The notes beneath the pieces were generated by a model that searched no databases, had not been told where the DNA came from, and was given only the letters and a program-made list of their open reading frames with translations. From Candidatus Thorarchaeota archaeon (lineage in GTDB: Archaea > Asgardarchaeota > Thorarchaeia > Thorarchaeales > Thorarchaeaceae): DNA of 64,000 bases. The position numbers and the translations under genes are program-made. Where the stretch lies: assembly GCA_011364985.1 (NCBI GenBank), contig RDOC01000004.1, positions 62,001-126,000 on the forward strand, written 5' to 3'. This document shows, in pieces, positions 2,845 through 52,474 of this stretch; the stretch's first letter is position 1; every line of letters starts with the position of its first letter.

Positions 2845-3708
2845 CTAGATTCCCATCTTGAAAATGAGTGAGTCACGGAGAACCCGCTGGAACATCCTCA
2901 AGAGATTCTTCCCTTCAGTTGCGATTGTTGGAAATACTGGATACCCTTGGACACCTAGCATGTCTACCATATAGTCAACTGGTAAGGCGTTTGGGAGGTC
3001 TCTCTTGTTTAGAGATACAATGATTGGCAATGTTGCCATCCTATCTGTTCCAAGCGCAATTCTCAATTCCTGGATTGAGGCAAGATTCTCGTTCATCTGC
3101 TCAGGGGTGGAATCAGCCATGAAGATTATTCCATCGACATTGCGAAGGACATTGATGCGTTGAGTTGCATGCCTTCGCTGTCCGGCCACTGTAAACACAT
3201 CAAACACAACATTTTCACTGGCAGACACCGGAATGAAATCGAAATATGTTGTACGTCCCAGTTCGTCGGAGATCTCAACGATCTTTCCCTTGGAGAGAGA
3301 CTTCACATTGGCAAACAGCCATCTCAAGGCAGTTGTCTTTCCAGACAGGGAGGGGCCATAGAATACGATCTTGATATGTATACGTCCCATCTCATCTCGT
3401 TTGAGATCCTCACCTGCAACAATCTCTTGTACTTTCTGAGGACCAATTTTCGCTCTACTAGCCAGCCTTTTCGTTCCCTCTTCATCAACTCGCAGCTCCG
3501 CTGATGAGGCCACAAGAGTCCCTTCAGGTTGCGGATGCAGTATCTCAGCTGATAGGGTCTCCTCAGTGCCAATAGGCGCATCACCCTCTGCTGCCCCCAC
3601 CTTAGCAGAGGATTCGACGTGTGTAGTATCGGGTTCTGGTATAGATTCTAATGCCGGGGATTCCTTCTTTTTGGTTCTTCTGAACCTTGACGTCAGCCTC
3701 CGTAGCAA
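2845..3708 (-). CDS. MglA-like small GTPase with charged N-terminal extension
   Basis: A 287-residue protein. About 110 low-complexity charged residues, beginning with an Arg/Lys-rich patch, precede a GTPase domain: P-loop GPSLSGKTT, then GRTTYFDFIPV, G3-region TVAGQRRH and G4 NKRD. The pattern GP-x-x-x-GKTT plus RT-x-(F/Y)-FDF is typical of the MglA/Rup1 branch, cytoplasmic switches that work with Roadblock-domain partners. The start is TTG at 3706-3708, with a purine-rich GGAGAGAGG just upstream. It is transcribed divergently from the aminotransferase gene across about 90 bp. The N-terminal tail may bind membranes or partners (inference). The substrate pathway is unknown. Confidence 0.88.
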   Translation of the reverse strand: MLRRLTSRFRRTKKKESPALESIPEPDTTHVESSAKVGAAEGDAPIGTEETLSAEILHPQPEGTLVASSAELRVDEEGTKRLASRAKIGPQKVQEIVAGEDLKRDEMGRIHIKIVFYGPSLSGKTTALRWLFANVKSLSKGKIVEISDELGRTTYFDFIPVSASENVVFDVFTVAGQRRHATQRINVLRNVDGIIFMADSTPEQMNENLASIQELRIALGTDRMATLPIIVSLNKRDLPNALPVDYMVDMLGVQGYPVFPTIATEGKNLLRMFQRVLRDSLIFKMGI

Positions 3709-15187: not shown

Positions 15188-16066
15188 TTACTCCTCAAAG
15201 TCGAGGGAGTCCTCATCAAACTCCTCATCGAATTCCTCGTCATCCTGTTCCTCGACTTCTTCTTCCTCGGGTAATGCATCCTGCAGGTCGTCTAGTATCT
15301 TCCTCAGTCGACGACGTGTAGCCTTGGGGACATCCCACATTTTCTGTTCGGCGCGCTCGACCACCTCTCTGGCAATATCATAGATTTCAGCCTCAAGATA
15401 GTATTGCGCAGCCTCTACAAAGTGCTCTGCTGATTTTCTCTGATTCCCATTCATCTCTGCGATATCTCCAAGCAAAGACAATGCATCAGCAATACCAGCT
15501 TTGTCATCAATATCACGGTAGATTTTTAGTGCCTTTTTGAACTCCTTTTCAGCCGAGTCCCAATCTTCACGGTCTGCATAGGCATTGCCCACATCCATAA
15601 CGGTGCTTGCTACACCTTGATGATTTCCAGAGGACTTGTATGCGCTTTGCGCATGTCTAAAGTACTCAAGCGCTTTATCAAACTCACCAAGGCCGTGCTT
15701 TGCTAAGCCTAAGGCATACATTGCGTCCGCTTCGCCATCTGGATTCTTGACCTCTTTGAAAAGATTCATAGCCTTCTCGCATGACGTGGCTGCATCGGCC
15801 CATCGTTCAAGATTAATCTGAGCTACTCCAAGATTGTACATGGCATCGCTAATGCCCGTCTCATCCTTAAGGTCCTCATAAATCCCTAGCGCCTGTTCAA
15901 AACAGCCCAATGCCTCATCGTATTCTGCGACGGACATGTATACGTTACCAACTGCATTCATAATTCTAGCCGCAGTGTCTTTGTCCCCGGCAGCCAAAGC
16001 TTCGTCAGCCTGATCAAGTAGCTCTGCTGGATCCATGTCCTCAAAGGAATCATCTTCGTCGCTCAT
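15188..16066 (-). CDS. TPR-repeat protein with acidic C-terminus
   Basis: A 292-residue cytoplasmic scaffold. About five tetratricopeptide repeats run from residue 25 to 215, with clear YDEALGCFEQALGIYEDL, WADAATSCEKAMNLFKE, FDKALEYFRHAQSAYK and WDSAEKEFKKALKIYRD helices, then a helical end and a Glu/Asp-rich tail of about 40 residues. The frame is open upstream to a TTG at 16099, but the ATG at 16064-16066 has a strong TGAGGAATG ribosome site. It lies downstream of, and on the same strand as, the COG2229 GTPase gene (64-bp gap), so the two may be co-transcribed. The partner is unknown. Confidence 0.9.
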   Translation of the reverse strand: MSDEDDSFEDMDPAELLDQADEALAAGDKDTAARIMNAVGNVYMSVAEYDEALGCFEQALGIYEDLKDETGISDAMYNLGVAQINLERWADAATSCEKAMNLFKEVKNPDGEADAMYALGLAKHGLGEFDKALEYFRHAQSAYKSSGNHQGVASTVMDVGNAYADREDWDSAEKEFKKALKIYRDIDDKAGIADALSLLGDIAEMNGNQRKSAEHFVEAAQYYLEAEIYDIAREVVERAEQKMWDVPKATRRRLRKILDDLQDALPEEEEVEEQDDEEFDEEFDEDSLDFEE

Positions 16067-16130
16067 AAGGCATTCCTCAGCCAGTGAGAAATGATGCAAA
16101 CTATCTCTCTTTTGAGCCTTTCTGAATCCC

Positions 16131-16832
16131 TTATTTGCTCATGATTAGATTGGGATTCTTCAAGAATTTCTTGACCTTCTCATTCACTTGGAACCGCTCA
16201 TCGCCGACCTGCACTTCCAAGAGTTTTCGAAGCTCGAATCGCCGGAGGTATCCAACAGCCTGATCTCGAGAAACATTGAGGTCTTTCATCAAGTGCTTTA
16301 GTCCGTTCTCAGATCCACTATACTGGGCAAATTTGGTGAACACATTACTCCATTGCATCATTGCCAAGAACAATAGAGTTCGCAAGACCCGGTCAACATT
16401 CTCACCGGTTTCAGCGGAACAAGGCATTACTGCTTGACCCACCAAGAATTTCATTCGATCCCTCAATTGGTCAACTCGCCGCGCTTCTGCAAGGTCCTGT
16501 TTATTTGCAGCAACGACACAGGGCACACCAGGAAGAAAGAATGCAATCTCCCTAAAGAAGAGCTTTGCACGTGCATCAGATTCAGGATCGGAAGAGTCAA
16601 CCACAAGAATAATCCCATCAGCACCTGAGCTGAGTATCTTCCTCATTGTCCTAAACCGCAGAAGACCTGGAGTACCAAATAGGAATACGCTCATTCCATC
16701 CACATTTGTCAGTCCATGGTCCATCGCAATCGTTGTCCCTCTTCTCTCAATATTGATGCAGGCACCGTTTGTGAGATGATGGATTATTCTGCTCTTGCCT
16801 GATTCATATGGTCCTGTCACTATGATCTTCAT
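16131..16832 (-). CDS. COG2229-type small GTPase with C-terminal winged-helix-like segment
   Basis: A 233-residue protein. The GTPase core occupies residues 1-170: P-loop GPYESGKS, switch I RRGTTIAMDHG, G3-region LFGTPGLLRF, VVDSSDP, G4 NKQD and a CSAETGE G5-like motif. The G3 region FGTPG rather than DxxGQ is typical of COG2229/Arf-like archaeal GTPases. Residues 175-233 form a basic helical domain (NVSRDQAVGYLRRFELRKLL then VGDERFQV) that looks like a small winged helix. The ATG has AGGTGGAG upstream. It heads a short operon with the TPR gene. Confidence 0.9.
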   Translation of the reverse strand: MKIIVTGPYESGKSRIIHHLTNGACINIERRGTTIAMDHGLTNVDGMSVFLFGTPGLLRFRTMRKILSSGADGIILVVDSSDPESDARAKLFFREIAFFLPGVPCVVAANKQDLAEARRVDQLRDRMKFLVGQAVMPCSAETGENVDRVLRTLLFLAMMQWSNVFTKFAQYSGSENGLKHLMKDLNVSRDQAVGYLRRFELRKLLEVQVGDERFQVNEKVKKFLKNPNLIMSK

Positions 16833-20839: not shown

Positions 20840-22717
20840 TTATTCTTGCGAATCGGATTTCGTTTCCTTGGCTTTTCGATCAAGTATCGCGTCCAGTTCT
20901 GTAATTGTGTCAGTATCCAAGTCACGTGGTCTATTATCAGCTTCCTCGGATCCATTTTCCCGGGAATCATCTTCGTGTTCTCCGAGGGCCAAGGTAAGCT
21001 CCCGCTTGGTTTCTTCATCTATGCTGCTTGTAGTATCAGGCTCATCTTCAAGCGGGAGCACTTCCTCGCTTGAAAAGGCCTCTAGAGCGGTACCTATGTC
21101 CTCTTTCGATACTTCCTCAATTGCCGCCGATACTAAGTCGTCAGCTTCGAGTGCCTCCGCTATTAAATCCAAGGCCATTTTTGTACCATTTTCATTGGGA
21201 ATAGATGGCATTTCTGGTCGAGAAATCTCGGTTGTACCTGCGCTGAATTCTCCGTCTTTGATTTCAGATTCTTCCTGACCTTCCATGATTTCCGCCTCTT
21301 CATCATTCCCCGATTCTGCAGGACCAACTGCAATTACAGCCGCTTCTGCTTCTTCTTCCGCTGAGTCTATTATGGATTTCTCGCCTGTTTTCTGAGATCC
21401 ACCAAAGTCAATTTCCACTGATGAAACATACTGAAAGGCGTCTTTGTCTCTTTCAGAAGCAACCTTAAGCTGAAATTCTGGTGCCTCATCGATGGCTATG
21501 GCCAAATGACTTTCCTCACCTGTAACTGGTGCTTCCTCAGGTTTGGAAGGAGGCTTTTTGATGGTCCCTAGAGATTCGATGGAATCTAGCGCTTCAGCGA
21601 AATCAGAATCGGAAAAGACATCTTCAATCTCTTCCACCACTTCTTCAACAATCTCATACTCATCTGAATCTTCAATGATATGGCCATTTTCGTCAACGAA
21701 AACCTCTTCAACGACCTCAATGGTTTCGAATTCTGAACTTACTTCCTCTTCCGCTTCTAGTTGTCGTACACGGGCATCAACTTCGGCAATGGCTTCCTCG
21801 GCTGCTTCGTCGGCAAATCGAAGGAGCTGCTTCGCAGGGAGATCAGGAAGAGTAACACCAACATAGTGAGCAGCAGCGTCCATGAGAATTCTCAACATCT
21901 CGTCACGTCTGCTCTTGTCAATAGCCACCATGCTGTATGTTGGAACACCCAAGATCTTCTGGACAACTTCTGGTTTCATGACGTTGGGCTTGTCCTGTTT
22001 GTTCGCAATGGCAAAGACAGGAACCTTTGGCGCATCACGACGAATAAGTTTCAAGATATCCTTGCTGATGATTACATTCCGTAGTGATGAATCGCAGACC
22101 AAGAAGATGACGTCTGCACCATGGAAGTAGAAGCGCCAGAGCTTTCGAAATCGTTCCTGACCAGCAAAGTCCCAGAGCACAAGGGAGTAGTTGCCAAACT
22201 TGATGTTTTCAACGGTTTCAAGATTCAGTGCAATTGTTGGCACGTATTGGGTAGGGGGCGTGTCACCAAGTAGCAGGTGAAGTGTAGTTGTTTTACCAAC
22301 CCCGCCCTCTCCAACAAGTGCAATCTTTAATTTCGTTGTGACTGATGACTCGATAATTGCAGCAAAACTGTCAATTGCTGCCTTGAGACCCTCCCCTGAG
22401 ATGTATTTCCTCAATGCAGCAGCTCCATTCCTCAATCTGTCCGTAGTAGAACGCTCATCTTCTCGGGTGTCGGTGACAAATACCAGGAGTAGATCCCCAA
22501 CCACATCAGCTGCCAGAAACTTATCATCCTCAAGAATCAGTGGAAGCTCCTGGAATTCATCTCCCGAAGCCGACTTGATTTCTTCCCTCGTTGACAGAAA
22601 CTCCTGTAATTTGCTGTCTTCAGTTTCTATGGGCCAGTATTTGGTTTTCGCAATAATGGCACCGGTCGAAGGTCGCACGAGGTATGTGTTTATGATCATG
22701 GGATTCTCACCAGCCAT
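20840..22717 (-). CDS. Longin-like/small GTPase fusion with long acidic tail
   Basis: A 625-residue protein. Residues 1-115 (NTYLVRPSTGAIIAKTKYWP ... LLLVFVTDT) have a longin/Roadblock-like alternation of strands and helices. Residues 130-300 are a complete Ras/Arf-type GTPase: P-loop GEGGVGKTT, PTIALNLE, G3 WDFAGQERFR, and G4 NKQD. Residues 305-625 form a low-complexity tail very rich in Glu, Asp and Ser. ATG 22717 is preferred to TTG 22723. Eukaryotic trafficking GTPases work with longin-domain regulators; a fusion of the two in one archaeal chain suggests a self-contained membrane or cytoskeletal switch (inference). It lies downstream of a structured non-coding region and 104 bp before the OB-fold gene. 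Confidence 0.88.
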   Translation of the reverse strand: MAGENPMIINTYLVRPSTGAIIAKTKYWPIETEDSKLQEFLSTREEIKSASGDEFQELPLILEDDKFLAADVVGDLLLVFVTDTREDERSTTDRLRNGAAALRKYISGEGLKAAIDSFAAIIESSVTTKLKIALVGEGGVGKTTTLHLLLGDTPPTQYVPTIALNLETVENIKFGNYSLVLWDFAGQERFRKLWRFYFHGADVIFLVCDSSLRNVIISKDILKLIRRDAPKVPVFAIANKQDKPNVMKPEVVQKILGVPTYSMVAIDKSRRDEMLRILMDAAAHYVGVTLPDLPAKQLLRFADEAAEEAIAEVDARVRQLEAEEEVSSEFETIEVVEEVFVDENGHIIEDSDEYEIVEEVVEEIEDVFSDSDFAEALDSIESLGTIKKPPSKPEEAPVTGEESHLAIAIDEAPEFQLKVASERDKDAFQYVSSVEIDFGGSQKTGEKSIIDSAEEEAEAAVIAVGPAESGNDEEAEIMEGQEESEIKDGEFSAGTTEISRPEMPSIPNENGTKMALDLIAEALEADDLVSAAIEEVSKEDIGTALEAFSSEEVLPLEDEPDTTSSIDEETKRELTLALGEHEDDSRENGSEEADNRPRDLDTDTITELDAILDRKAKETKSDSQE

Positions 22718-22859
22718 TATCAAGAAGTGGAATACAGACCCAAGCCTATTCTTGTCCCAATATGGATTAAAACATATTCAGGGTAGACCCGTTAGGTCCA
22801 TTATTCCACTTATAGAATATGAAGACGGCATAACACATTCGGATAGAGATTTTCAGCCA

Positions 22860-31445: not shown

Positions 31446-31985
31446 CTAAGAAATGGAGAATTCGGCCAGTCGGCGAAAGGCTTCTTCCACGTTCTTGCCT
31501 GTCAGTGCACTCGTTTCTAGGTAGCCATTCAGGCCATGTTCTTCAGCAAATGCCATCCCCATCTCTGTGGTAATAACACGCTCATCTACGAGATCTACTT
31601 TATTTGCCAGAAGAATGATTGGGATGCGTTCGCCCAGTGCATTCTGTGTTTCTTCAATCCACTTTGGAAGCTCCATATACGTGGACTTACGCGTAGTGTC
31701 GAAAACTAGCAGGGCACCTTTGCTTCCGCGATAGTAGCTTCCACGAATGAAATCAAATCGCTGTTGTCCAGCAAGGTCCCAGACCAGAAGCTTCACGACG
31801 ACTTGTCGACCATCAGCTTCATCAACCGCAACGGTCTTCACAGCAAACTGAGAGCCAATTGTAACAATATACTGCTCAGAAAACTTCTGCGTAAGAAATC
31901 TGTTGACCAGAGCCGTCTTCCCACTACCTCCGGCCCCAATCATAACGACCTTTCGCATGAAATCAAATTCCGCAGTTCTTGCCAA
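31446..31985 (-). CDS. Rab/Ras-like small GTPase
   Basis: A compact 179-residue GTPase of the Ras superfamily, Rab-like. All five G motifs are present: P-loop GAGGSGKTAL (17-26), switch I TIGSQF (Thr near 42), G3 WDLAGQQRFDF, G4 NKVD and G5 ETSALTG. The C-terminus ends FSIS with no prenylation cysteine, so membrane attachment must differ from eukaryotic Rabs. Such GTPases are expanded in Asgard archaea. It lies 100 bp upstream of the M42 peptidase gene. Likely partners are the longin- and Roadblock-type proteins in the window (inference). Confidence 0.93.
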   Translation of the reverse strand: MARTAEFDFMRKVVMIGAGGSGKTALVNRFLTQKFSEQYIVTIGSQFAVKTVAVDEADGRQVVVKLLVWDLAGQQRFDFIRGSYYRGSKGALLVFDTTRKSTYMELPKWIEETQNALGERIPIILLANKVDLVDERVITTEMGMAFAEEHGLNGYLETSALTGKNVEEAFRRLAEFSIS

Positions 31986-43963: not shown

Positions 43964-45814
43964 CTAAACAGAGAATTCGGATACGCGAAGGTCTGTCCTG
44001 CTGTTGAAAATGATATAGACTGGAATTGCAGCAAGAACCACCACAAGCAGTAGAGCGACAATGGTTATCATCATGGTGAAAGGAAGATACAGAAGTGATG
44101 GCACCGCGGCTTCAGGGACGAGGAAGTAAATACTGAAGATAGCCGCAAATACAACTCCGGGAAATCCTGCTTGAAGACCGATACTCACTCCTTCTGCTAT
44201 CATAGTTCTTGCTATGAAAGCGGGCTTTGCTCCGATGGAACGCATTATGACATAATCGCGGAATCTGCCAAAAACTGATACAAGCAAGTAGTTCATTAGC
44301 GATAGGAAAGCACCAAACAGGGCGATAAGAGGCAACGGCTGTAGCAGCGCCCAAAAGGAGCCAACAACTTGTAGGTTCTCCTCGATGACTGACTCTTGTT
44401 CGAAGATTCTCAGTCCATAGCTAGAAGCTAGTGATTCAATTGTACTGATAGAGGACCTATCATTCTGATAGAGCTGCAAGAGGAGCAGATTTGGTCCTGA
44501 GATAGGATACAGCTCCTGCATTTTCCCATAGCTGATAAAAGCCACATCTCCGCCGTTAATGACATCAAAAGCAATGGCCGTGATATCAAAAGCTGAGCCC
44601 TCAACTCCAATGCTCTGAATCAATGGATCAGTAAAAAGCCTTGAAGCCAATTCTCCACCAATCCAGGCATGATATGATGCATTTGCGCGATTGCCCTCAT
44701 AATACCAGTCGGATATTGTGTTCTGCCAATTAATGCCAACCACAAGAGCGCTTCCCGAACGTTCTTCACCGATCAATTCCCAATCACCAATTGTCGGATT
44801 CCATAGAATTCCGGCACCTTCCGTGACTGCTGAATATGTCACAATACGGGATTCTATTGCTTGGACATTCGACAGCTCCTCAAGATCTGCTATGAGAGAA
44901 GAGGGAATTCTATAAGAGTCATACGCGAAATCGAAACTATTGTTTAGCTTTGACCCGCTAAGTGAGTATGCGTTGTAATATTGCTTGAGGAGATCGCCAT
45001 TCCCAATGGCGATGACATCAGAACCCATAGAGCGGATAATGTATGCATCTGTGGTGGCTTCAACAACTCCACCACCAATCCAAAGCACTGACGCAAGAGA
45101 AATACTCAGAAAGAGTGAAAGAAGTGTGCGTCGTGCGCCTTTGATTCTCCGTCCAGAAGCCTTAGTGGCAATTCTAAAGGGCAGTCCAAATGAATCGAGG
45201 AAGCCAACTCTGCGTACCTTCGACCCAACTTCAGGATTAAGGGCATCAATAGGAGATTCGTGTACTGTGTCATAAATTGGCTTTTGCGCAGCGAAGAATC
45301 CGGTTATCAAAAAGATTGCCGCAAGGAACACAACCTGAAGAATTGGAAAATTAAAGGTGAATGCTATAGTAGGAACAACAGACGCCAACCAAACAAGGCC
45401 GGCCAAGTAAATCACAGTACCTATTCCGATTCCCAGAATAACGCTTGCTCCCAAGAGCATCACTGCTTGAGCCATAAAATGGTCAAACAGGGTGTCCATT
45501 AAGGTCCCTACAGCCTTCATCAATCCAATATCCTTGCGCCGAGCAACCATCTCCAAGGATATTGTACTTGAAACAACTACAGCTCCAAGAATTAGGACGA
45601 GGATTAAAGTTGCCCAGATGAAGGTTTCCAGGAAGACACCAAGAGAGGTGGTGGTTCCCGTTGACGTCACAAATGATGTAACATCAAGAAGTACATTTCC
45701 GAAAAGGAACAAGAAGGTTGTTGCTGCCACAACAGAAACCATTGAGAGGAGTATGAGGGTGCTCCTGAAAGGCCTCCGCTTTAAGTCCTTGGAAGCATAG
45801 TCTTGTTCAGACAT
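43964..45814 (-). CDS. FtsX-like ABC transporter permease
   Basis: A 616-residue permease with the double-FtsX layout: one N-terminal span, then an N-terminal FtsX unit (about residues 60-180 with VARRKDIGLMKAVGTLMDTLF), a second start span near 235, a large extracytoplasmic MacB-like domain (about 260-480) and a C-terminal three-span FtsX unit with RFRDYVIMRSIGAKPAFIAR. It partners with the ATPase gene upstream (8-bp overlap), giving a MacB/LolCD-like exporter or lipoprotein extractor. A membrane-bound winged-helix gene lies just upstream of the pair. Substrate unknown. Confidence 0.92.
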   Translation of the reverse strand: MSEQDYASKDLKRRPFRSTLILLSMVSVVAATTFLFLFGNVLLDVTSFVTSTGTTTSLGVFLETFIWATLILVLILGAVVVSSTISLEMVARRKDIGLMKAVGTLMDTLFDHFMAQAVMLLGASVILGIGIGTVIYLAGLVWLASVVPTIAFTFNFPILQVVFLAAIFLITGFFAAQKPIYDTVHESPIDALNPEVGSKVRRVGFLDSFGLPFRIATKASGRRIKGARRTLLSLFLSISLASVLWIGGGVVEATTDAYIIRSMGSDVIAIGNGDLLKQYYNAYSLSGSKLNNSFDFAYDSYRIPSSLIADLEELSNVQAIESRIVTYSAVTEGAGILWNPTIGDWELIGEERSGSALVVGINWQNTISDWYYEGNRANASYHAWIGGELASRLFTDPLIQSIGVEGSAFDITAIAFDVINGGDVAFISYGKMQELYPISGPNLLLLQLYQNDRSSISTIESLASSYGLRIFEQESVIEENLQVVGSFWALLQPLPLIALFGAFLSLMNYLLVSVFGRFRDYVIMRSIGAKPAFIARTMIAEGVSIGLQAGFPGVVFAAIFSIYFLVPEAAVPSLLYLPFTMMITIVALLLVVVLAAIPVYIIFNSRTDLRVSEFSV

Positions 45815-46556
45815 CTTGCGTTAGCACTCCATTCTCCATTCTGAACTGTTTGGCTCCCTTTGTGTTCACAATCTTCTCGTCATGAGTCATTGTTATGACT
45901 GCCTTACCATCTCGATGTGCTTTTCTTAGAATATCTCGGACCATCTCTGCACTCACAGCATCAAGATTGGCGGTCGGCTCATCGGCTAGTATTATAGGAG
46001 GGTCGTTTGCCAGGGCTCGTGCAATGGCTACCCGCTGCTGTTCGCCTGCAGACAGCTGCCAAGGTAAATGATCTGCCCGTTCATCCAGTTTCACAAGCTT
46101 AAGCAATGCAAGGGCATCTTCCTCAAGCTCCTTTATCGGACGGTCAGTCAGCTGCATTGGGAACATTACATTCTCCAAAGCAGTTAATGTGGAAACTAAA
46201 TTATAGTTTTGAAAGATGAAGCCGGTATTCGCAAGTCGGAAAGTGGCCCTGAAAGACTCATCATAGTCGCCAATGGTGACATCCATGACAAAGACGGTTC
46301 CAGATGTGACATAGTCAATTGCACCAATGACATTCAAAAGAGTGGTCTTGCCAGACCCTGAAGGCCCAGATACTGCAACAAATTCGCCAGGGCGGATTTC
46401 CAAATTCACGTTTCTTAGTGCAGAAATCTCCCTGTTGCCAATGGTATAATTCCTTGACACATCGACCAGCCGCACTGCAAAATTCACAGATTCGTCATCG
46501 TCGACTTCAACTTCGTCGTAGGGGATATCATCATCCCAAGAATCATCACCGGCCAT
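45807..46556 (-). CDS. ABC transporter ATP-binding protein (MacB/LolD type)
   Basis: A 249-residue ATPase that energises the adjacent FtsX-like permease. Walker [11 protein letters not shown]-loop FIFQNYNLV, signature [15 protein letters not shown], Walker [13 protein letters not shown] and the switch His TMTHDE are complete. A 20-residue acidic N-terminal lead ([19 protein letters not shown]) is unusual for the class and may contact the permease. ATG 46556 is preferred to a start at 46598. It overlaps the permease gene by 8 bp. Confidence 0.94.
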
Positions 46557-46654
46557 AGTCAGTATCAACTCAGCAAATCTGATTCTGTCCCTATTCAAGG
46601 AGGGCGCTGCTTTGGGCAGCGTTCACTAACAAGATAAGGATAGAGGTTAGGCAG

Positions 46655-47416
46655 TCATTGTACTAGTAATCCATTAACAGTAATAGCTGATTTTGCCCAA
46701 TCGGTCAATACAAGCGGCTTTTCTCTTCCAAAGACCTTGATGGTTCTTAGGACATCTTCCTCCAACAGACCACCGACATAGTATGACACAAGGCTCTTTT
46801 CAATCGAGAGCGTTCGGCTTAGTTCAGCCTGAGTGATTCTACCATTTGCCATGCATGCATCAAGAATCGATTTGATTGTAGGATTAGTGAACATTGATGC
46901 CAGTTTCAGAACTTGATCATCGGGGGAGTAGCCCCTGATAAAGAGATGGCGGGCATTTCCATTTCTAACTGATAGTACAGATCCATCTCGTTCAAGATTT
47001 CTTAGATGATACTGCAGTGCACCCATGGCACATCCAACCTGCCTATGAAGTTCCCTCAGATGGATTCCTGGATTCTGGGAGATTTCTTCTACAATACGGT
47101 CACGTAACTTCAGGACTTTTTCTTCACGACGTTCCAGAGAAATCGTGCCAAGAGCCAGAAAGATGGCACCTGCAGATAGTTTGATGTTATATTCCATAGG
47201 CAGAACAACCAGCGTTCCACCAATCACACTCATACCGGCACTTGTTGTTCCATTCAAGCTTATCTGGGATAGAAAGCTATCTGACCACGACAAATCCTGA
47301 ACAAGAAGCTGATCACTTCCTTGGCCGACGCCAGACATTGCAAGACTGGCCATACCTGAGAACAGAAACAGGAATGAGAGTGCAATTAGAGATTTTCGTA
47401 CTCTTGTAGATGGCAT
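46655..47416 (-). CDS. Membrane-bound winged-helix regulator
   Basis: A 253-residue protein. An N-terminal signal-anchor (SLIALSFLFLFSGMASLAM) and a second span near residue 75-92 enclose a short outer segment; the cytoplasmic part has two winged helices. The first is GIHLRELHRQVGCAMGALQYHLRNLERDGSV (about 115-145), the second ITQAELSRTLSIEKSLVSYYVGGLLEEDVL (about 195-224), both ArsR-like. It could sense an envelope signal and regulate genes from the membrane. It is 98 bp upstream of the ABC exporter genes on the same strand, the likeliest target. ATG with GGAGAGAAGG upstream. Confidence 0.86.
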   Translation of the reverse strand: MPSTRVRKSLIALSFLFLFSGMASLAMSGVGQGSDQLLVQDLSWSDSFLSQISLNGTTSAGMSVIGGTLVVLPMEYNIKLSAGAIFLALGTISLERREEKVLKLRDRIVEEISQNPGIHLRELHRQVGCAMGALQYHLRNLERDGSVLSVRNGNARHLFIRGYSPDDQVLKLASMFTNPTIKSILDACMANGRITQAELSRTLSIEKSLVSYYVGGLLEEDVLRTIKVFGREKPLVLTDWAKSAITVNGLLVQ

Positions 47417-47494: not shown

Positions 47495-48043
47495 CTATCC
47501 TCTGGGTGGATAGGACAAGGTGATCTTGAACCTGCAGGCATCAGCTTTGACAGACATGCATGTTTCTTCGGTAACCACTAGTTTCTCATATTGAATTCTA
47601 TTAAAGTCAGTTAGGTACTCCATAACTGCTTCAATGAAACCTCTCAAGAAATAGCAGGAGGGTTCTTCACTCTCATAACCAGATGCATACGGATTGTCCT
47701 TGATTCTAATAACAGCCTCTTCGTCAAGGAAGAGCTTGTACAAGTTCTCAATCTCCACATCCCCAAATGGAACGATTAGGGTTCCTAGAGCTGTCTTGAT
47801 GAACTCGACGATTCCCTTGAAGTCACCGGGCGGCTTCTGCTTACCAATCTTGAAGTACTCGCGTTGTGCTTCGAGACCCGCAAGACGACCGGCGCTGTAA
47901 TAGAGATCTTTCACACGGTCTGGAAACATAACTGCTATTCGCGAACCAATCTTGTTCCAAGTCTTGGAGAAAAACGCCGACATTAATTCACGTTCCTTAA
48001 GGCGACCTTGCCACCAAGGTATAATATCGTCCGGTTTAGACAT
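47495..48043 (-). CDS. V4R/Bet3-fold protein, first of three
   Basis: A 182-residue protein with the V4R/Bet3-like C-terminal pattern: PSCYFLRGFIEAVMEYLTDF, then VTEETCMSVKADACRFKI, matching the Cys-containing core of V4R (4-vinyl reductase) domains, which share a fold with eukaryotic TRAPP Bet3 subunits. A basic, helical N-terminal half precedes it. The presence of related proteins in the next genes suggests a common assembly. It is the last (downstream) gene of the Bet3/Roadblock block, after a 60-bp gap. Confidence 0.72.
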   Translation of the reverse strand: MSKPDDIIPWWQGRLKERELMSAFFSKTWNKIGSRIAVMFPDRVKDLYYSAGRLAGLEAQREYFKIGKQKPPGDFKGIVEFIKTALGTLIVPFGDVEIENLYKLFLDEEAVIRIKDNPYASGYESEEPSCYFLRGFIEAVMEYLTDFNRIQYEKLVVTEETCMSVKADACRFKITLSYPPRG

Positions 48044-48103
48044 CTAATCGACTCCGAAGAACGAAATACAGAGAGGAGTTAAGTGCTTTGTGTTGATTCC
48101 CCT

Positions 48104-48574
48104 CTATAAGCGAATATTCCATGTGCAGCTGCCCGCTCCTGTTGCTCTGCACGATTCCTGGAACACTTCTGCCTCCACCCCTTTGAAACGTAGAATAGCC
48201 TCAACTATCCCACTAAAGCCTTCACAATATCCAAATCCACGCATGCCTTCCAATGTGACATCTTGACACCATACGCACTCATCATCTGTTACACGAACAG
48301 ACCCTCGCGCAGTCTTCATGTCAATATCTGTTGGCTTCTTGTTGAAGAGCACCTTGTATATGGTTTCAACTAGCTTCGATACATCCTCGCGTGTCATGAC
48401 GGTATCTTTCGTTTTTTCTGCAATCTCAGTATTTAGATAAATGTGGGACCCCATTTCACGCCCCAGTTCCCGCAGTCGTTCATTTGCGTCCTCAATATTG
48501 TCTGTTTCTGCAAGAATTCCATCGACCCATTGCGCGTAGAGACTCAAGAGCAACGGATTTTCGATTTTCGCCAT
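48104..48574 (-). CDS. Bet3/V4R-fold (TRAPP-like) protein, second of three
   Basis: A 156-residue protein. The order matches Bet3: ANERLRELGREMGSHIYL (the helix that in Bet3 reads VN..L...GY.IG.RL), then YCEGFSGIVEAILRFKG and EVFQESCRATGAGSCTWNIRL, matching the YxxxLCGxxRGAL and later strand of Bet3 proteins. CVWC, SC and SC cysteines could bind a metal, as in V4R domains. ATG 48574 with GGAGGTCC upstream replaces the frame's earlier start. It lies 13 bp downstream of the Roadblock-winged-helix gene, so the pair is co-translated or nearly so. Confidence 0.8.
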   Translation of the reverse strand: MAKIENPLLLSLYAQWVDGILAETDNIEDANERLRELGREMGSHIYLNTEIAEKTKDTVMTREDVSKLVETIYKVLFNKKPTDIDMKTARGSVRVTDDECVWCQDVTLEGMRGFGYCEGFSGIVEAILRFKGVEAEVFQESCRATGAGSCTWNIRL

Positions 48575-48587
48575 TTCTAAGGACCTC

Positions 48588-49580
48588 CTAAACAGTCTTA
48601 CCAATCAACTTGATTCCATACTTCTTGTTTCTGGCTATCGCTTGAATGACCTTAGCATGAGGGATATTCATTGCTTCAGCAATCTCTTCTGTCGTTTTCG
48701 TGCCATCACAGTGACGAATAATGTCAGCGTCTGGTCCTCTGATTTTGCTGATATCGCCTTCGAACTCAGGGCATTTTACGAACTTGCCTATTTTGGAATC
48801 TGCAGTCTGGGAAACTTCGACAACTTCTGGAACTTCAACAATGCTTTGCCCAGCCGCCCACTTTAGAAGCTCGATTACACGTTCGTTTGGTTGAAACATA
48901 GTATCAGCAATCTGAGTGGCAGATTTTGTGCCGTCAACAAGCATCAATACATCAAATCCAAAGTTTCGGTACATGCTCTTCATCTCCTTGTAGAGGGGAG
49001 AGTCAAGAGACAAAGCCGTTGAGTAGGTAGATCCTCTTTTGGGTATCGTTGCAGGTAGAATGTTATAGTCGGCGGGGGTCTTGGCCTCGGCTGGTGTATC
49101 CGCAACCTCTGCAACAGGTTCATATGATGCGTTCTCTATCGAATTCGTTACATCCACAACCGGTTCAGTCGAAGCTGTCGATGCAGCTTCCAAAGCAATA
49201 CTCTCCAAGACCTGAAGGTTTGATTCCGCGGATTCTTCAAAATCATCTGGGGGTGGAGGCAGTTCGATTCCCTCTAATAACCTGAGAACATTCTTTGTTT
49301 TTGCAATAGCAAGCCCCAGCTGAAGCTCTGGGACATATAGCACTGTGAGAATCCAGTTTTCGTCAACCGGTGATAGAACCACAAGTCCTTTTTCGGTATC
49401 AATTGTCATCAGTCGCAAGTCGCTTTTGTAGAGGGTAATACTATCCTTGACTCTGGGAAAGAGGTCATCTGGAAAAGAAAAGCTGACAAAGGGACGACCA
49501 GTCTTTGTCATCAAGGAATAGCCTAGAACTTGATCATCAAATCGGAGCTTCGATAAAGCTCGTTCCAAATCGGTTGCCAT
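48588..49580 (-). CDS. Roadblock-like domain plus tandem winged-helix-like domains, first copy
   Basis: A 330-residue protein. Residues 1-115 form a Roadblock/LC7-like domain (YSLMTKTGRPFVSFSFPDDL, LVVLSPVDENWILTVLYVPEL). A flexible linker of Pro/Glu/Ala follows, then two similar units, VDGTKSATQIADTMFQPNERVIELLKWA and CDGTKTTEEIAEAMNIPHAKVIQAIAR, each helix-turn-helix-like. ATG 49580 has GAGGT upstream; the frame's earlier Met-65 codons are non-coding. It directly precedes a Bet3-like gene by 13 bp, and a second pair with the same order is encoded at 51002-52474. Confidence 0.82.
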   Translation of the reverse strand: MATDLERALSKLRFDDQVLGYSLMTKTGRPFVSFSFPDDLFPRVKDSITLYKSDLRLMTIDTEKGLVVLSPVDENWILTVLYVPELQLGLAIAKTKNVLRLLEGIELPPPPDDFEESAESNLQVLESIALEAASTASTEPVVDVTNSIENASYEPVAEVADTPAEAKTPADYNILPATIPKRGSTYSTALSLDSPLYKEMKSMYRNFGFDVLMLVDGTKSATQIADTMFQPNERVIELLKWAAGQSIVEVPEVVEVSQTADSKIGKFVKCPEFEGDISKIRGPDADIIRHCDGTKTTEEIAEAMNIPHAKVIQAIARNKKYGIKLIGKTV

Positions 49581-49799
49581 ACTTGGGTACCTCACTGTCA
49601 CTGCGGATTGAGAAAGACCTGCTGGACATGTTATTCTTTCTTGGTGGTCTGAAAAGCATTTTGGTGGCATATGTTCCCACAGCAATGCCGTATTTGCAGT
49701 CTGGGTGCGTTTGCTACGTGAGGAATCCAAAATGGCAGAAAGCATTAAGAGAGGATTTGATAGCTCAACCATAGAGCGAGTTACTAGGAAGTTTGCACA

Positions 49800-50327
49800 A
49801 TGAGAAACATTGTCGGAGGAGCAGCTGCTGCCTTGATTGGGTCACTGATTCTAGGAGGAATTTTCATTGGCGCTGATATTCTGAGACGGACCTACCCTCT
49901 GATTCTTGAAACCGACTTTACGCTTCCCTTGGTACTTACATGGTTGCTTCTCGGATCTGTTTCAGGTCTGTTTTCCAATTCACCTTGGAACACTGTGCGT
50001 ACAGCCGTTTGGATAGGCACCTGTCTTGGTTTACTTTCAGTCATTAGCATTCTCTCTGTCACTCCAGAGTTCTGGACAAGTCCAGATAGAAACCTCGCAC
50101 TTCTACTAATCTTCATCAGTGCAATAGTGACATCCCTTCTGACAATCCCGACAGCCATTGCAATCATTCTGGTTAAGAGAAGACTCTTTAGGGACCAAGA
50201 AAAACCGCCTCCGGAGAAGATAGAATCGGTCTGCTCCGCGTGCGGTGCAGTCTTCAAGTCAGTACCCATTTTATGTTCGGAATGTGGTGCCTTGATGGAA
50301 AACGAACAACGGCCGCAGACGAAATAG
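49800..50327 (+). CDS. Four-span membrane protein with zinc ribbon
   Basis: A 175-residue protein with about four hydrophobic spans (residues 4-24, 43-58, 68-87, 97-123) and a cytoplasmic zinc ribbon at the C-terminus (CSACGAVFK...CSECGALM, two CxxC pairs). Function unknown. It is divergent from the first Roadblock-winged-helix gene and convergent with the next membrane-protein gene, which ends 2 bp away. Confidence 0.83.
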   Translation: MRNIVGGAAAALIGSLILGGIFIGADILRRTYPLILETDFTLPLVLTWLLLGSVSGLFSNSPWNTVRTAVWIGTCLGLLSVISILSVTPEFWTSPDRNLALLLIFISAIVTSLLTIPTAIAIILVKRRLFRDQEKPPPEKIESVCSACGAVFKSVPILCSECGALMENEQRPQTK

Positions 50328-50328
50328 A

Positions 50329-50895
50329 CTAGCGTTCTCTGGTTATGCCACCACCAAGAAGACCACCAATCACCGCAGCAATTCCAGGATAGAGCAGCCC
50401 TTCAAGTGCTGCTTGGAGGATGAGCATTGAGCCTCCACCGAACAAAAGCTCAATGTCACCAGACTGAATAAAGAAGAAGAGAAGCCAAGTCAGAAATGCA
50501 CCGATTATGACAGCAAACACAGCAGCAAGGATTCCTTGCAAGAAGTCTCTGGCTAGAAGACCAGCAATCAGTCCACCGGCCCCCCAAGCCAATGCCATAA
50601 GGACAGTAGCGCTTTGAGCACCATAGGTTAAGATCTGTCCAAGACTTGTGGATCCAAGAGTTGAGGGATAGAGAACAGTTCCGACCACCGCAAGTCTTGC
50701 CTCCAAATCCATATGCAGGTAGAAGTCGTCTACAATGGCGCTGGATATGAGATCTTCCGGCATGGAACCTCCAAAGGTCAGAATTACAAAAGCAATTGCA
50801 AATGCGGCAATCAATCCAGCAATAGTTCCTGCACCTTGACCCAAGGGATGACCTCCATCTGAACCGTATCTTCTAGTTTGTTTCCGATTGGGCAT
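50329..50895 (-). CDS. Membrane protein, unknown function
   Basis: A 188-residue protein with a basic N-terminus and about four Gly/Ala-rich hydrophobic spans (residues 24-45, 92-112, 118-140, 155-180). The glycine-rich helices (GGLIAGLLARDFLQGILAA, GIAAVIGGLLGGG) suggest a small channel-like or scaffold protein. The gene lies in the 100-bp gap downstream of the second Bet3 gene and convergent with the zinc-ribbon membrane protein. Confidence 0.82.
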   Translation of the reverse strand: MPNRKQTRRYGSDGGHPLGQGAGTIAGLIAAFAIAFVILTFGGSMPEDLISSAIVDDFYLHMDLEARLAVVGTVLYPSTLGSTSLGQILTYGAQSATVLMALAWGAGGLIAGLLARDFLQGILAAVFAVIIGAFLTWLLFFFIQSGDIELLFGGGSMLILQAALEGLLYPGIAAVIGGLLGGGITRER

Positions 50896-51001
50896 ATTTT
50901 AACATATGCACTACGGCTTCTTCCGATCTGGATCCTTGGCATACTCATTGTAAGCTTAGGCAACCAGTCATATTGGATATGTTTGAACTCTGGGTAGTTC
51001 A

Positions 51002-51508
51002 CTATCTCAATCGGAGAATCCATGTACAGACGGCATCGCCCAGTGCCTTGCAGGATTCTTGGTAGGCTTCGGCATTGAAGCCTCTCAGCTCCATTACGGC
51101 ATCGAAGACCCCACTGAGAATTGCGCAGTACTGAAGACCAGGCATATCAGTGATTTCGACTCCAGCACATATTGGGCAGTTGGCATCTGTGAATTTTATG
51201 ACACGTTGGTCATCACTTATCCAAATACTAGTAAATTCCTGACCTGAGTTGACCTTGTAGGCTAGCTGAAGTGTATTTGCAAATTCCACGAATTCACCAG
51301 CATGCTCACGTATCTTGTCGGCATAGTCCATCAGTAGTGTCTCGCCAACTTTGAAGCCAATGCTTTGCATAGCCCTATTAACTTCATCAACATTGCTGCT
51401 CTGAGTCATTAAGTTGTTCATTAGCTCACGATAGGTTGCTTGGAAAAGCGTCTTCGAAACCTTATCGATTTTGAGATGCCATCCCATCTTCCCCTTGATT
51501 CCCATCAT
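51002..51508 (-). CDS. Bet3/V4R-fold (TRAPP-like) protein, third of three
   Basis: A 168-residue protein closely paralleling the second copy. VNRAMQSIGFKVGETLLMD matches the Bet3 N-terminal helix, YCAILSGVFDAVMELRGF the central helix, and YQESCKALGDAVCTWILRL the C-terminal strand. A CPIC pair plus SC and VC give the V4R-type cysteine set. ATG 51508 has AAGAGGT upstream. It is the downstream partner of the second Roadblock-winged-helix gene (15-bp gap), repeating the order seen at 48104-49580. Confidence 0.8.
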   Translation of the reverse strand: MMGIKGKMGWHLKIDKVSKTLFQATYRELMNNLMTQSSNVDEVNRAMQSIGFKVGETLLMDYADKIREHAGEFVEFANTLQLAYKVNSGQEFTSIWISDDQRVIKFTDANCPICAGVEITDMPGLQYCAILSGVFDAVMELRGFNAEAYQESCKALGDAVCTWILRLR

Positions 51509-51523
51509 TCATTACCTCTTTTG

Positions 51524-52474
51524 TTATTCTTGAGACCTCTTACTTCGTTTAACAAAGCGAAGCGTCTTTCCGCGATAGGCTACTGTGCTCTGTAAGGCTT
51601 TGAAGTAGGAGATATTGAGTTCTTTCGCTATCTCCTGTAAACTACGCCCACCATTACACAACGCGAGCACAGGTCTATGTTCCTTTTTTGTCTTTTTGAT
51701 GTCGCCTTCAAAGAGTGGGAGTTCAACAATTTCAATGGAGCCTGCTTCTTGCTCTTCAGGGCACTCTGTATCCACGATTTCTTCTGCAAAGCACCATCTA
51801 ATAACCTCAAGGATTTGCTCCACGGACTTGTTCAAGACATCGGCAATCTTGTATACACTTCGCTTCTCATCAGCCATCAACAAGACATCAACTGCCAGAT
51901 TAGAGAACTTGGACTTCAGCTTCTTGTTCAATTCTGTTTCAAGACTCATTGCCTCAGAATAACGTTCACCACGAAGAACAAGACAGCCATGCCTGATCTC
52001 TACTGGTTTGGGCTCCTTTTCGGTCGGAGTTGTATCAGCCGCGCGTATGCCTTCAATCATAAAGGGTTCCATCTGTTCTTGACTGGACTCGTCTGCCTGA
52101 CCAATGGAGGATAACCCTGCTGCGGATGTTGTCGTTTCAGATGGTTTCGGAGGCGGCGGCAGAACGACTTCATCCATTAGATCAACAACGCTTTTTGTCT
52201 TTTGAAGCGCCTCTCCAAGTTGCAGGTCTGCAGAGAATAGAACAGCCAAAACCCAATTCTCATCAACTCTGGCGAGAACTACAATTCCTCTACCTGTCAT
52301 GACATTCATCAGCTTGAATGACGCCGCATGTATCTTCAATGTACCTTGAATCTGCGGTAGAACTTCATCTGGTAGAGAGAACGAGAGAAATGGATGACCG
52401 TCATTTGTAATGAGCGCATATCCACTAACAGCTTCATCGAATTTCAGCTTTGTAAGGACGCGCTCTAGTTCCAT
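51524..52474 (-). CDS. Roadblock-like domain plus tandem winged-helix-like domains, second copy
   Basis: A 316-residue paralogue of the 48588 gene: N-terminal Roadblock/LC7-like domain (YALITNDGHPFLSFSLPDE, IVVLARVDENWVLAVLFSADL), a Pro/Ser/Thr-rich linker, then two helix-turn-helix-like units (DEKRSVYKIADVLNKSVEQI and NGGRSLQEIAKELNISYFKAL). The conserved spacing DG/NGxRS...IA...N in both units supports an internal duplication. It precedes the third Bet3-like gene by 15 bp. It follows the PfkB gene (46 bp) in the same direction. Confidence 0.82.
   Translation of the reverse strand: MELERVLTKLKFDEAVSGYALITNDGHPFLSFSLPDEVLPQIQGTLKIHAASFKLMNVMTGRGIVVLARVDENWVLAVLFSADLQLGEALQKTKSVVDLMDEVVLPPPPKPSETTTSAAGLSSIGQADESSQEQMEPFMIEGIRAADTTPTEKEPKPVEIRHGCLVLRGERYSEAMSLETELNKKLKSKFSNLAVDVLLMADEKRSVYKIADVLNKSVEQILEVIRWCFAEEIVDTECPEEQEAGSIEIVELPLFEGDIKKTKKEHRPVLALCNGGRSLQEIAKELNISYFKALQSTVAYRGKTLRFVKRSKRSQE

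Follow-up and report, generated by a model that had tools for sequence, protein, structure and literature searches.

Two Roadblock-winged-helix/TRAPPC3-like gene pairs of a Thorarchaeota archaeon may encode a TRAPP-like regulator of a small GTPase

The window that we analysed is a 64,000-nucleotide stretch of a Thorarchaeota (Thor) genome (part of contig C17 of genome G000, which has 1.70 Mb on 22 contigs and is 74% complete). On its reverse strand lie two gene pairs, A and B, in each of which a gene for a predicted Roadblock-winged-helix protein (the partner) is followed by a gene for a TRAPPC3/Bet3-like protein (TRAPP A or TRAPP B). Whether the product of the two pairs is a small-GTPase regulator akin to TRAPP is, in our view, an evenly balanced question. 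This reading is built on three computed results, namely homology to TRAPPC3, paralogy of A and B in both subunits, and an adjacency that is conserved in Asgard archaea; from these we infer the complex, the GTPase and the activity.

Two gene pairs in the window

The locus has the following features.

51524-52474, reverse strand: partner B, predicted Roadblock domain and two winged helices, 316 amino acids (aa); domains from paralogy to partner A
51515-51518, reverse strand: GAGG, candidate ribosome-binding site of TRAPP B, read from the sequence
51002-51508, reverse strand: TRAPP B, TRAPPC3/Bet3-like, 168 aa; Pfam TRAPP 31.9 bits (cut-off 27)
50329-50895, reverse strand: membrane-protein-like gene after pair B
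49800-50327, forward strand: opposite-strand gene between the two pairs
48588-49580, reverse strand: partner A, predicted Roadblock domain and two winged helices, 330 aa
48584-48588, reverse strand: GGAGG, candidate ribosome-binding site of TRAPP A, overlapping the partner A stop codon; read from the sequence
48104-48574, reverse strand: TRAPP A, TRAPPC3/Bet3-like, 156 aa; Pfam TRAPP 35.0 bits (cut-off 27)
47495-48043, reverse strand: V4R protein, 182 aa; Pfam V4R 6.9e-10, 39.3 bits

An earlier note on this DNA had listed five reverse-strand genes here, twice a partner followed within 15 bp by a Bet3-like gene and finally a V4R gene, and we recovered all of them in place. The distance from partner stop to TRAPP start is 15 bases in pair B and 13 bases in pair A, and the last gene, which is above the Pfam V4R cut-off, follows TRAPP A in an order that is kept in Thor. 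The two pairs do not form one block, as had been supposed: a single operon was rejected, since the opposite-strand gene separates them. As the TRAPP genes start 13-15 bases past the partner stops, behind GGAGG or GAGG (the latter between the partner B stop at 51524-51526 and the TRAPP B ATG at 51508), coupled translation of partner and TRAPP is plausible. The partner A reading frame is open to 49772; we chose the start at 49580 because the 120 homologues listed span 99-100% of the resulting 330-aa reading. For TRAPP A, the listed open reading frame (ORF) begins at a TTG (48604), and the ATG at 48574, behind GGAGG, was taken as the start.

Relationship of TRAPP A and TRAPP B to TRAPPC3

At Pfam cut-offs of 27 bits for TRAPP (PF04051) and 31 bits for V4R (PF02830), both TRAPP genes lie above the former and below the latter (V4R: 11.7 bits for TRAPP A, 17.3 bits for TRAPP B), and they were for this reason rejected as ordinary V4R genes. 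They are the sole two PF04051 matches in G000. Against 7yh2, the crystallised Thor-TRAPPC3, TRAPP A has an E-value of 7e-76, which identifies it at the sequence level as the orthologue, and against its best eukaryotic TRAPP chain only 1.9e-3. For TRAPP B, a paralogue without a crystal structure, the E-value is 5e-21 against 7yh3 and between 4e-9 and 1.6e-3 against 13 eukaryotic TRAPP chains (7b6r_C at 4e-9; 6aq3_A, subunit 3, at 1.3e-7). Since its best eukaryotic match is so much stronger than that of TRAPP A, it is by these comparisons TRAPP B that stands nearer to eukaryotic TRAPPC3. When 50 TRAPP-like proteins are placed in one tree, A and B group together as a clade (support 97/92) with a long branch leading to A (1.65); the simplest reading would be a duplication in the Thor stem with A as the faster copy. 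TRAPP B ends 9 residues past the aligned stretch and 7b6r_C 21 residues past it; the C-terminal extension of eukaryotic TRAPPC3 reaches into the groove of the core (PMC8204870).

The Bet3 fold that had been proposed from the letters alone is borne out by the TRAPP cut-off and by the matches to the solved 7yh2 and 7yh3, and the window encodes two different subunits of this fold, the paralogues TRAPP A and TRAPP B. For TRAPP A, the dimer of Thor-TRAPPC3 is expected as well. According to Tran et al. (2024; PMC10933270), Thor-TRAPPC3 is a homodimer that binds zinc, has an internal cavity and is most like TRAPPC3; the TRAPPC3 relative is thus already known. In the text consulted, that paper treats the protein alone and mentions neither the winged-helix partner, nor TRAPP B, nor the gene pair. 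Among the open-access papers that our searches listed, we saw none on a Roadblock- or longin-winged-helix gene paired with an Asgard TRAPPC3 gene, and a linkage to partner and GTPase was not seen in the literature consulted.

Both window TRAPP proteins have five cysteines, arranged as CxxC, YC, ESC and xxC. The aligned part of the crystallised relatives has four, CxxC, YC and xxC, with a serine at the position of the ESC cysteine; in 7yh3 they are exactly four, all of which occur in both window genes. The earlier note had named CxxC, ESC and xxC, which are indeed present, but the set also includes YC. Because the CxxC, YC and xxC cysteines match the four of the zinc-bound relatives, they are probably zinc ligands, and a structural zinc site is preferred over the ligand sensor that had been suggested.

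The partner proteins and their winged helices

Partners A and B share 38% identity across about 300 residues; they are paralogues and each other's sole matches at E<=1 in G000. Partner A is predicted to consist of a Roadblock domain (residues 1-104), an LPPPP motif, a variable linker and two winged helices (194-250 and 264-330). Its model has a pTM of 0.35; the predicted fold shows the Roadblock topology of helix, two strands, helix, three strands and helix, in line with what the earlier note had anticipated. By paralogy to the modelled partner A, the same folds are predicted for partner B (Roadblock about 1-104, a linker, winged helices about 181-243 and 246-310), which matches our winged-helix profile at 6.9e-49, being itself among the training sequences of the profile. 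Partner A reaches only 12.4 bits against the Pfam Robl_LC7 cut-off of 23 bits, for partner B no such match is listed, and the best match of the partner A profile among PDB sequences, the Robl_LC7 protein 7f8m, has an E-value of only 0.22. The VIA rows cover mostly residues 1-111. In the partner tree, Roadblock proteins of family f12 that fall inside partner A rest on a branch of 2.88, and this placement was not used.

The best whole-length Foldseek matches of the partner A model are GATOR1 chains, which we take to be NPRL2 and NPRL3 and in which a Roadblock/longin-type domain is likewise followed by winged helices. The pairs could accordingly be read as a GATOR1-like GTPase-activating platform, with partners A and B acting as NPRL2 and NPRL3 on a Rag-like GTPase and TRAPP as an accessory ligand sensor. 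This is distinctly improbable: the domain order is alike but the overall arrangement is not (TM-score about 0.2, root-mean-square deviation 16-20), and the comparison depends on a model with the pTM given above. We know of no TRAPPC3 subunit in GATOR1, and the Roadblock platforms of MglB/MglA and Ragulator have, to our knowledge, neither winged helices nor a TRAPPC3-like partner.

The main rival to a GTPase regulator is a two-part, ligand-responsive transcription regulator, in which the TRAPP/V4R protein would sense a hydrophobic or redox signal, the partner would bind DNA and the Roadblock domain would dimerise. The V4R regulators MsvR and PoxR belong to one superfamily with TRAPPC3, and MsvR combines V4R with a winged helix. 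Weak matches to this transcription factor (1.3e-3 and 2.5e-3), matches of the winged-helix profile to many DNA-binding regulators in the PDB, and the basic character of winged helix 2 (mean net charge +5.1) are consistent with such a regulator, as is the observation by Podar (2008, PMC2253512) that prokaryotic V4R domains, when fused, are mainly joined to transcription-regulation and signal-transduction domains. However, the window genes pass the TRAPP and not the V4R cut-off, winged helix 1 is not basic (-1.1), and winged helix 2 is the least conserved folded part of the protein (19 of 67 positions at least 95% conserved; 2 of 10 in its recognition helix). Moreover, the longin-like and Ras GTPase partners described below are left unexplained. 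We consider a transcription regulator rather unlikely; the DNA binding by winged helices that the earlier note had raised becomes less likely through their conservation and charge, though winged helix 2 is basic.

Conservation of the pairs in Thor

At E<=0.001, PF04051 matches occur in 48 of 227 genomes of the Asgard phylum, including 42 of the 47 genomes of the window's own family (f1); the partner A query matches in 57 of the 227 and 44 of the 47. For 73 of the 75 f1 TRAPP matches a partner match lies directly upstream on the same strand, and the two exceptions are found at contig ends (G207, C58, base 7; G199, C239, 87 bases from the end). Wherever both copies are on one contig (31 of 31 such f1 genomes), they are on the same strand and 2.8-4.7 kb apart. 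Chance adjacency can thus be rejected, on the basis of these 73 pairs and of the wider Asgard census.

Pairing in other Asgard families

Outside f1, the partner A query finds no partner at any of the 8 PF04051 matches. A TRAPP profile (A1), in turn, has matches in 116 of the 227 Asgard genomes at E<=1e-5. We took a census of 65 TRAPP clusters outside the Thor A/B pairs (the places among the A1 matches listed, plus G189, G183, L057 and L058; L108, which gave no match under the scoring rules, is not counted) and scored their neighbours with a winged-helix profile trained on the two window partners, Thor L059 and L061, and L053, L089, L055 and L080 from f14 and f27. Neighbours had to be immediate, on the same strand and within 400 bases. 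A winged-helix neighbour was present at 33 of the 65 clusters, in 9 of 17 families (the third Thor module of f1, described below, and f2, f4, f12, f14, f17, f24, f25 and f27), and none of 385 ORFs not beside a TRAPP cluster gave a winged-helix match (p-value 3.6e-24, uncorrected for kinship). The 33 positives include the training loci L053, L089, L055 and L080; the other 29 are outside the training set, some of them close relatives of it (L054, L056, L081, L090). In all, winged-helix neighbours number 34 of 116, one of them on the opposite strand (L093), and the neighbour at L097 is 220 bases away. The gene-order comparison that the earlier note had called for thus finds neighbours kept far beyond the window; of the two outcomes that it had set against its idea, wrong folds and pairs that are neighbours in no relative, neither was seen.

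The N-terminal parts of the partners vary. As read from alignments, they are Roadblock-like in f14 (Jordarchaeia/Freyarchaeota) and f4 (Baldrarchaeota), longin-like in f27 (Borrarchaeum), and in f12 and the third Thor module they are a segment that contains CxxC. Tandem TRAPP genes were found in 21 of the 65 clusters (f3, f13, f15, f16, f17, f20, f27). In f20 (L102, L129-L131), a TRAPP-like gene of 170-175 aa directly precedes a protein of 489-490 aa whose N-terminal domain is TRAPP-like and whose long C-terminal part is uncharacterised.

Because the pairs adjoin in Thor and in several other Asgard lineages, partner and TRAPP are likely to be in a complex. That the gene order is simply inherited, with no functional link between the two proteins, is hardly credible. 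It would fit the flanking memX-like, PfkB and L13e genes, which are likewise kept across Thor genomes, the genus g13, which holds partner B without an intact TRAPP B, and the 32 clusters without a neighbour. Yet similar pairs stand amid different surroundings in f2, f4, f12, f14, f17, f24, f25 and f27, fusions exist, and both genes of pair B are jointly absent from G184 and G213.

Longin-like relatives, fusions and a module with a Ras-like GTPase

In Borrarchaeum (f27), two overlapping TRAPP genes form an operon with a longin-like-winged-helix gene (L055:3817-5545, L056, L080, L081), which in make-up is close to a minimal TRAPP core. Single proteins combine a longin-like domain with TRAPP (L082:3318-4208, f28) or a winged helix with TRAPP (L074:321-1736, f29), and a Heimdall longin-TRAPPC3 fusion was predicted by Tran et al. 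(PMC10933270). A profile of the f27/f28 longin-like domain has its best PDB match in the TRAPP longin subunit BET5 (6.1e-4), followed by another BET5 entry (0.0073), and all others are above 0.6. This points to a longin-like domain and not to orthology with TRAPPC1/C4, since Sybindin matches 134 of the 227 Asgard genomes weakly and f27 no better; the Borrarchaeum partner is below the Sybindin cut-off. Sybindin is above its cut-off in four genomes (f13 G072, G073 and G075; f20 G106), in none of them on the contig of a TRAPP match, among the matches listed. In G000 (74% complete) it has no match at E<=1.

Finally, a third Thor module consists of a Ras-like GTPase gene, a gene for a winged-helix protein (about 150 aa, N-terminal CPxC motif) and one for a TRAPP/V4R protein (about 200 aa), in this order. 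It is strong in 9 loci from 8 of the 47 f1 genomes (L095, twice in tandem, L096, L106, L126, L127, L128, L137 and L138). Its gene gaps range from a 4-base overlap to 29 bases, with one long predicted overlap in L127. Two of the GTPases match Pfam Ras (2e-23 and 3e-26) and the others were recognised by motif.

Gene sets with Roadblock, helix-turn-helix (DUF742) and Ras-like GTPase genes are also known as the conservons (cvnA-D) of Streptomyces (PMC8510531), and the pairs might be a signalling unit of this sort, convergent with TRAPP and unrelated to it. Eight of 15 winged helices do match DUF742, though weakly (best 0.004). No histidine-kinase-like CvnA and no GTPase gene are found beside the window pairs, and a TRAPPC3-like subunit is not among the conservon parts described in the available text of PMC8510531, where a histidine-kinase-like sensor takes its place. 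We judge this explanation highly improbable.

A possible TRAPP-like complex

In eukaryotes, the TRAPPC1/C4 longins between two TRAPPC3 copies constitute the minimal exchange factor, and the pseudo-twofold symmetry of the core suggests duplication (PMC10152722, PMC8204870). A duplicated Roadblock-TRAPP pair would provide parts of this kind: in Thor, two paralogues of TRAPPC3 type are encoded together with a Roadblock/longin-superfamily platform, and the Borrarchaeum operon joins two TRAPP genes to a longin-like one. In the proposed GTPase regulator, each partner would bind the TRAPP protein encoded beside it, and A and B would join into a heteromer of two platform and two TRAPP subunits, comparable to TRAPPC1/C4 with two TRAPPC3. 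The Roadblock-winged-helix subunits would serve as the platform that binds the GTPase; the TRAPPC3-like subunits would sit at its flanks and carry a hydrophobic ligand. Like MglB, longin and Roadblock platforms, the Roadblock dimer might bind a Ras-like GTPase and shift its nucleotide state, the winged helices could be protein-protein modules that join platform and TRAPP subunit, and the zinc-stapled TRAPP cavity may render the switch sensitive to a membrane or a lipid-like ligand.

A number of observations weigh against this reading. The eukaryotic core has TRAPPC1/C4 longins, two TRAPPC3, C5 and C6, whereas the Thor platform is a Roadblock domain with two winged helices, and G000 shows no Sybindin match. 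The Sybindin control at E<=1 matches weakly in the 134 genomes, reaches only 0.073 at best in f27 and did not single out the TRAPP-adjacent longins. The AlphaFold2 model of the Borrarchaeum longin-like-winged-helix protein is poor (mean pLDDT 58.5) and has no Foldseek match at E<=0.001, AP-complex and Mon1-Ccz1 chains ranking high but not significantly. No GTPase gene adjoins the window pairs, the nearest by motif scan being a Ras-family gene (31446-31985) more than 15 kb away, and the third Thor module was not found in G000 (74% complete); in its 150-aa winged-helix protein no Roadblock or longin domain was recognised, and Pfam lists none. In MK-D1, genes for GTPases generally do not share operons with Roadblock, longin or TRAPPC3 genes, and Asgard proteins expressed in HeLa cells showed no membrane targeting (Tran et al., PMC10933270). 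Moreover, 32 of the 65 clusters are without a same-strand winged-helix neighbour, including every examined cluster of f3, f13, f15, f19 and f20; of these 32, six are at a contig end, L074 bears the winged helix inside its TRAPP protein, L093 has it on the opposite strand, and the L052 TRAPP gene lies beneath a longer antisense ORF. Four genomes of genus g13 were examined for decay of TRAPP B (loci L139-L142): G220, G224 and G225 hold an intact partner B while TRAPP B is reduced to its last 26-38 codons, and G221 keeps partner B with an in-frame stop in TRAPP B. As partner B persists in g13 beside a broken TRAPP B, the former is not strictly dependent on the latter.

The ancestral TRAPP-like module that the earlier note had envisaged gains from the TRAPP-TRAPP-longin-like operons, the fusions and the module with a Ras-like GTPase, but loses in that the Thor platform is Roadblock and not longin. 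We tentatively put forward, as somewhat less probable than the GTPase regulator itself, that Asgard archaea hold a working pre-eukaryotic TRAPP core of Bet3-type subunits and a Roadblock/longin platform with winged helices, in some lineages with its own Ras-like GTPase, and that eukaryotic TRAPP would have arisen once the pair had been duplicated and the winged helices lost. Among the questions that eukaryogenesis still poses is where the regulators of vesicle traffic came from. Structures exist for individual Asgard TRAPPC3, Roadblock and GTPase proteins, but matching GTPases to regulators by genome layout is described as difficult (PMC10933270). The conserved pair, the tandem TRAPP paralogues, the fusions and the GTPase operon name specific partners for co-expression and assay, and yield a testable prediction of a route from a duplicated pair to the pseudo-symmetric TRAPP core.

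Other features of the window

A scan built for bacterial promoters gave 4 promoter-like sites, fewer than the shuffle mean of 7.5, and terminator-like sites (5) equalled those in shuffles (4.8). Four small-GTPase-type genes lie in the same 64 kb, none of them adjoining the TRAPP pairs:

31446-31985: Ras-family GTPase gene (Ras, 9e-48)
20840-22723: Arf-type GTPase inside a 627-aa protein (Arf, 3.6e-21)
16131-16832: Ras-type GTPase gene (Ras, 8e-12)
2845-3708: Arf/Gtr1_RagA GTPase gene

Beside the Ras-type gene at 16131-16832, a TPR protein (15188-16099) matches SNAP at 1.3e-8. Downstream of the V4R gene (43964-47416) follow an HVO_0163-type winged-helix regulator with a hydrophobic N-terminal part, an ABC ATPase and an FtsX-like permease, an order that recurs in L059, L104 and L105.

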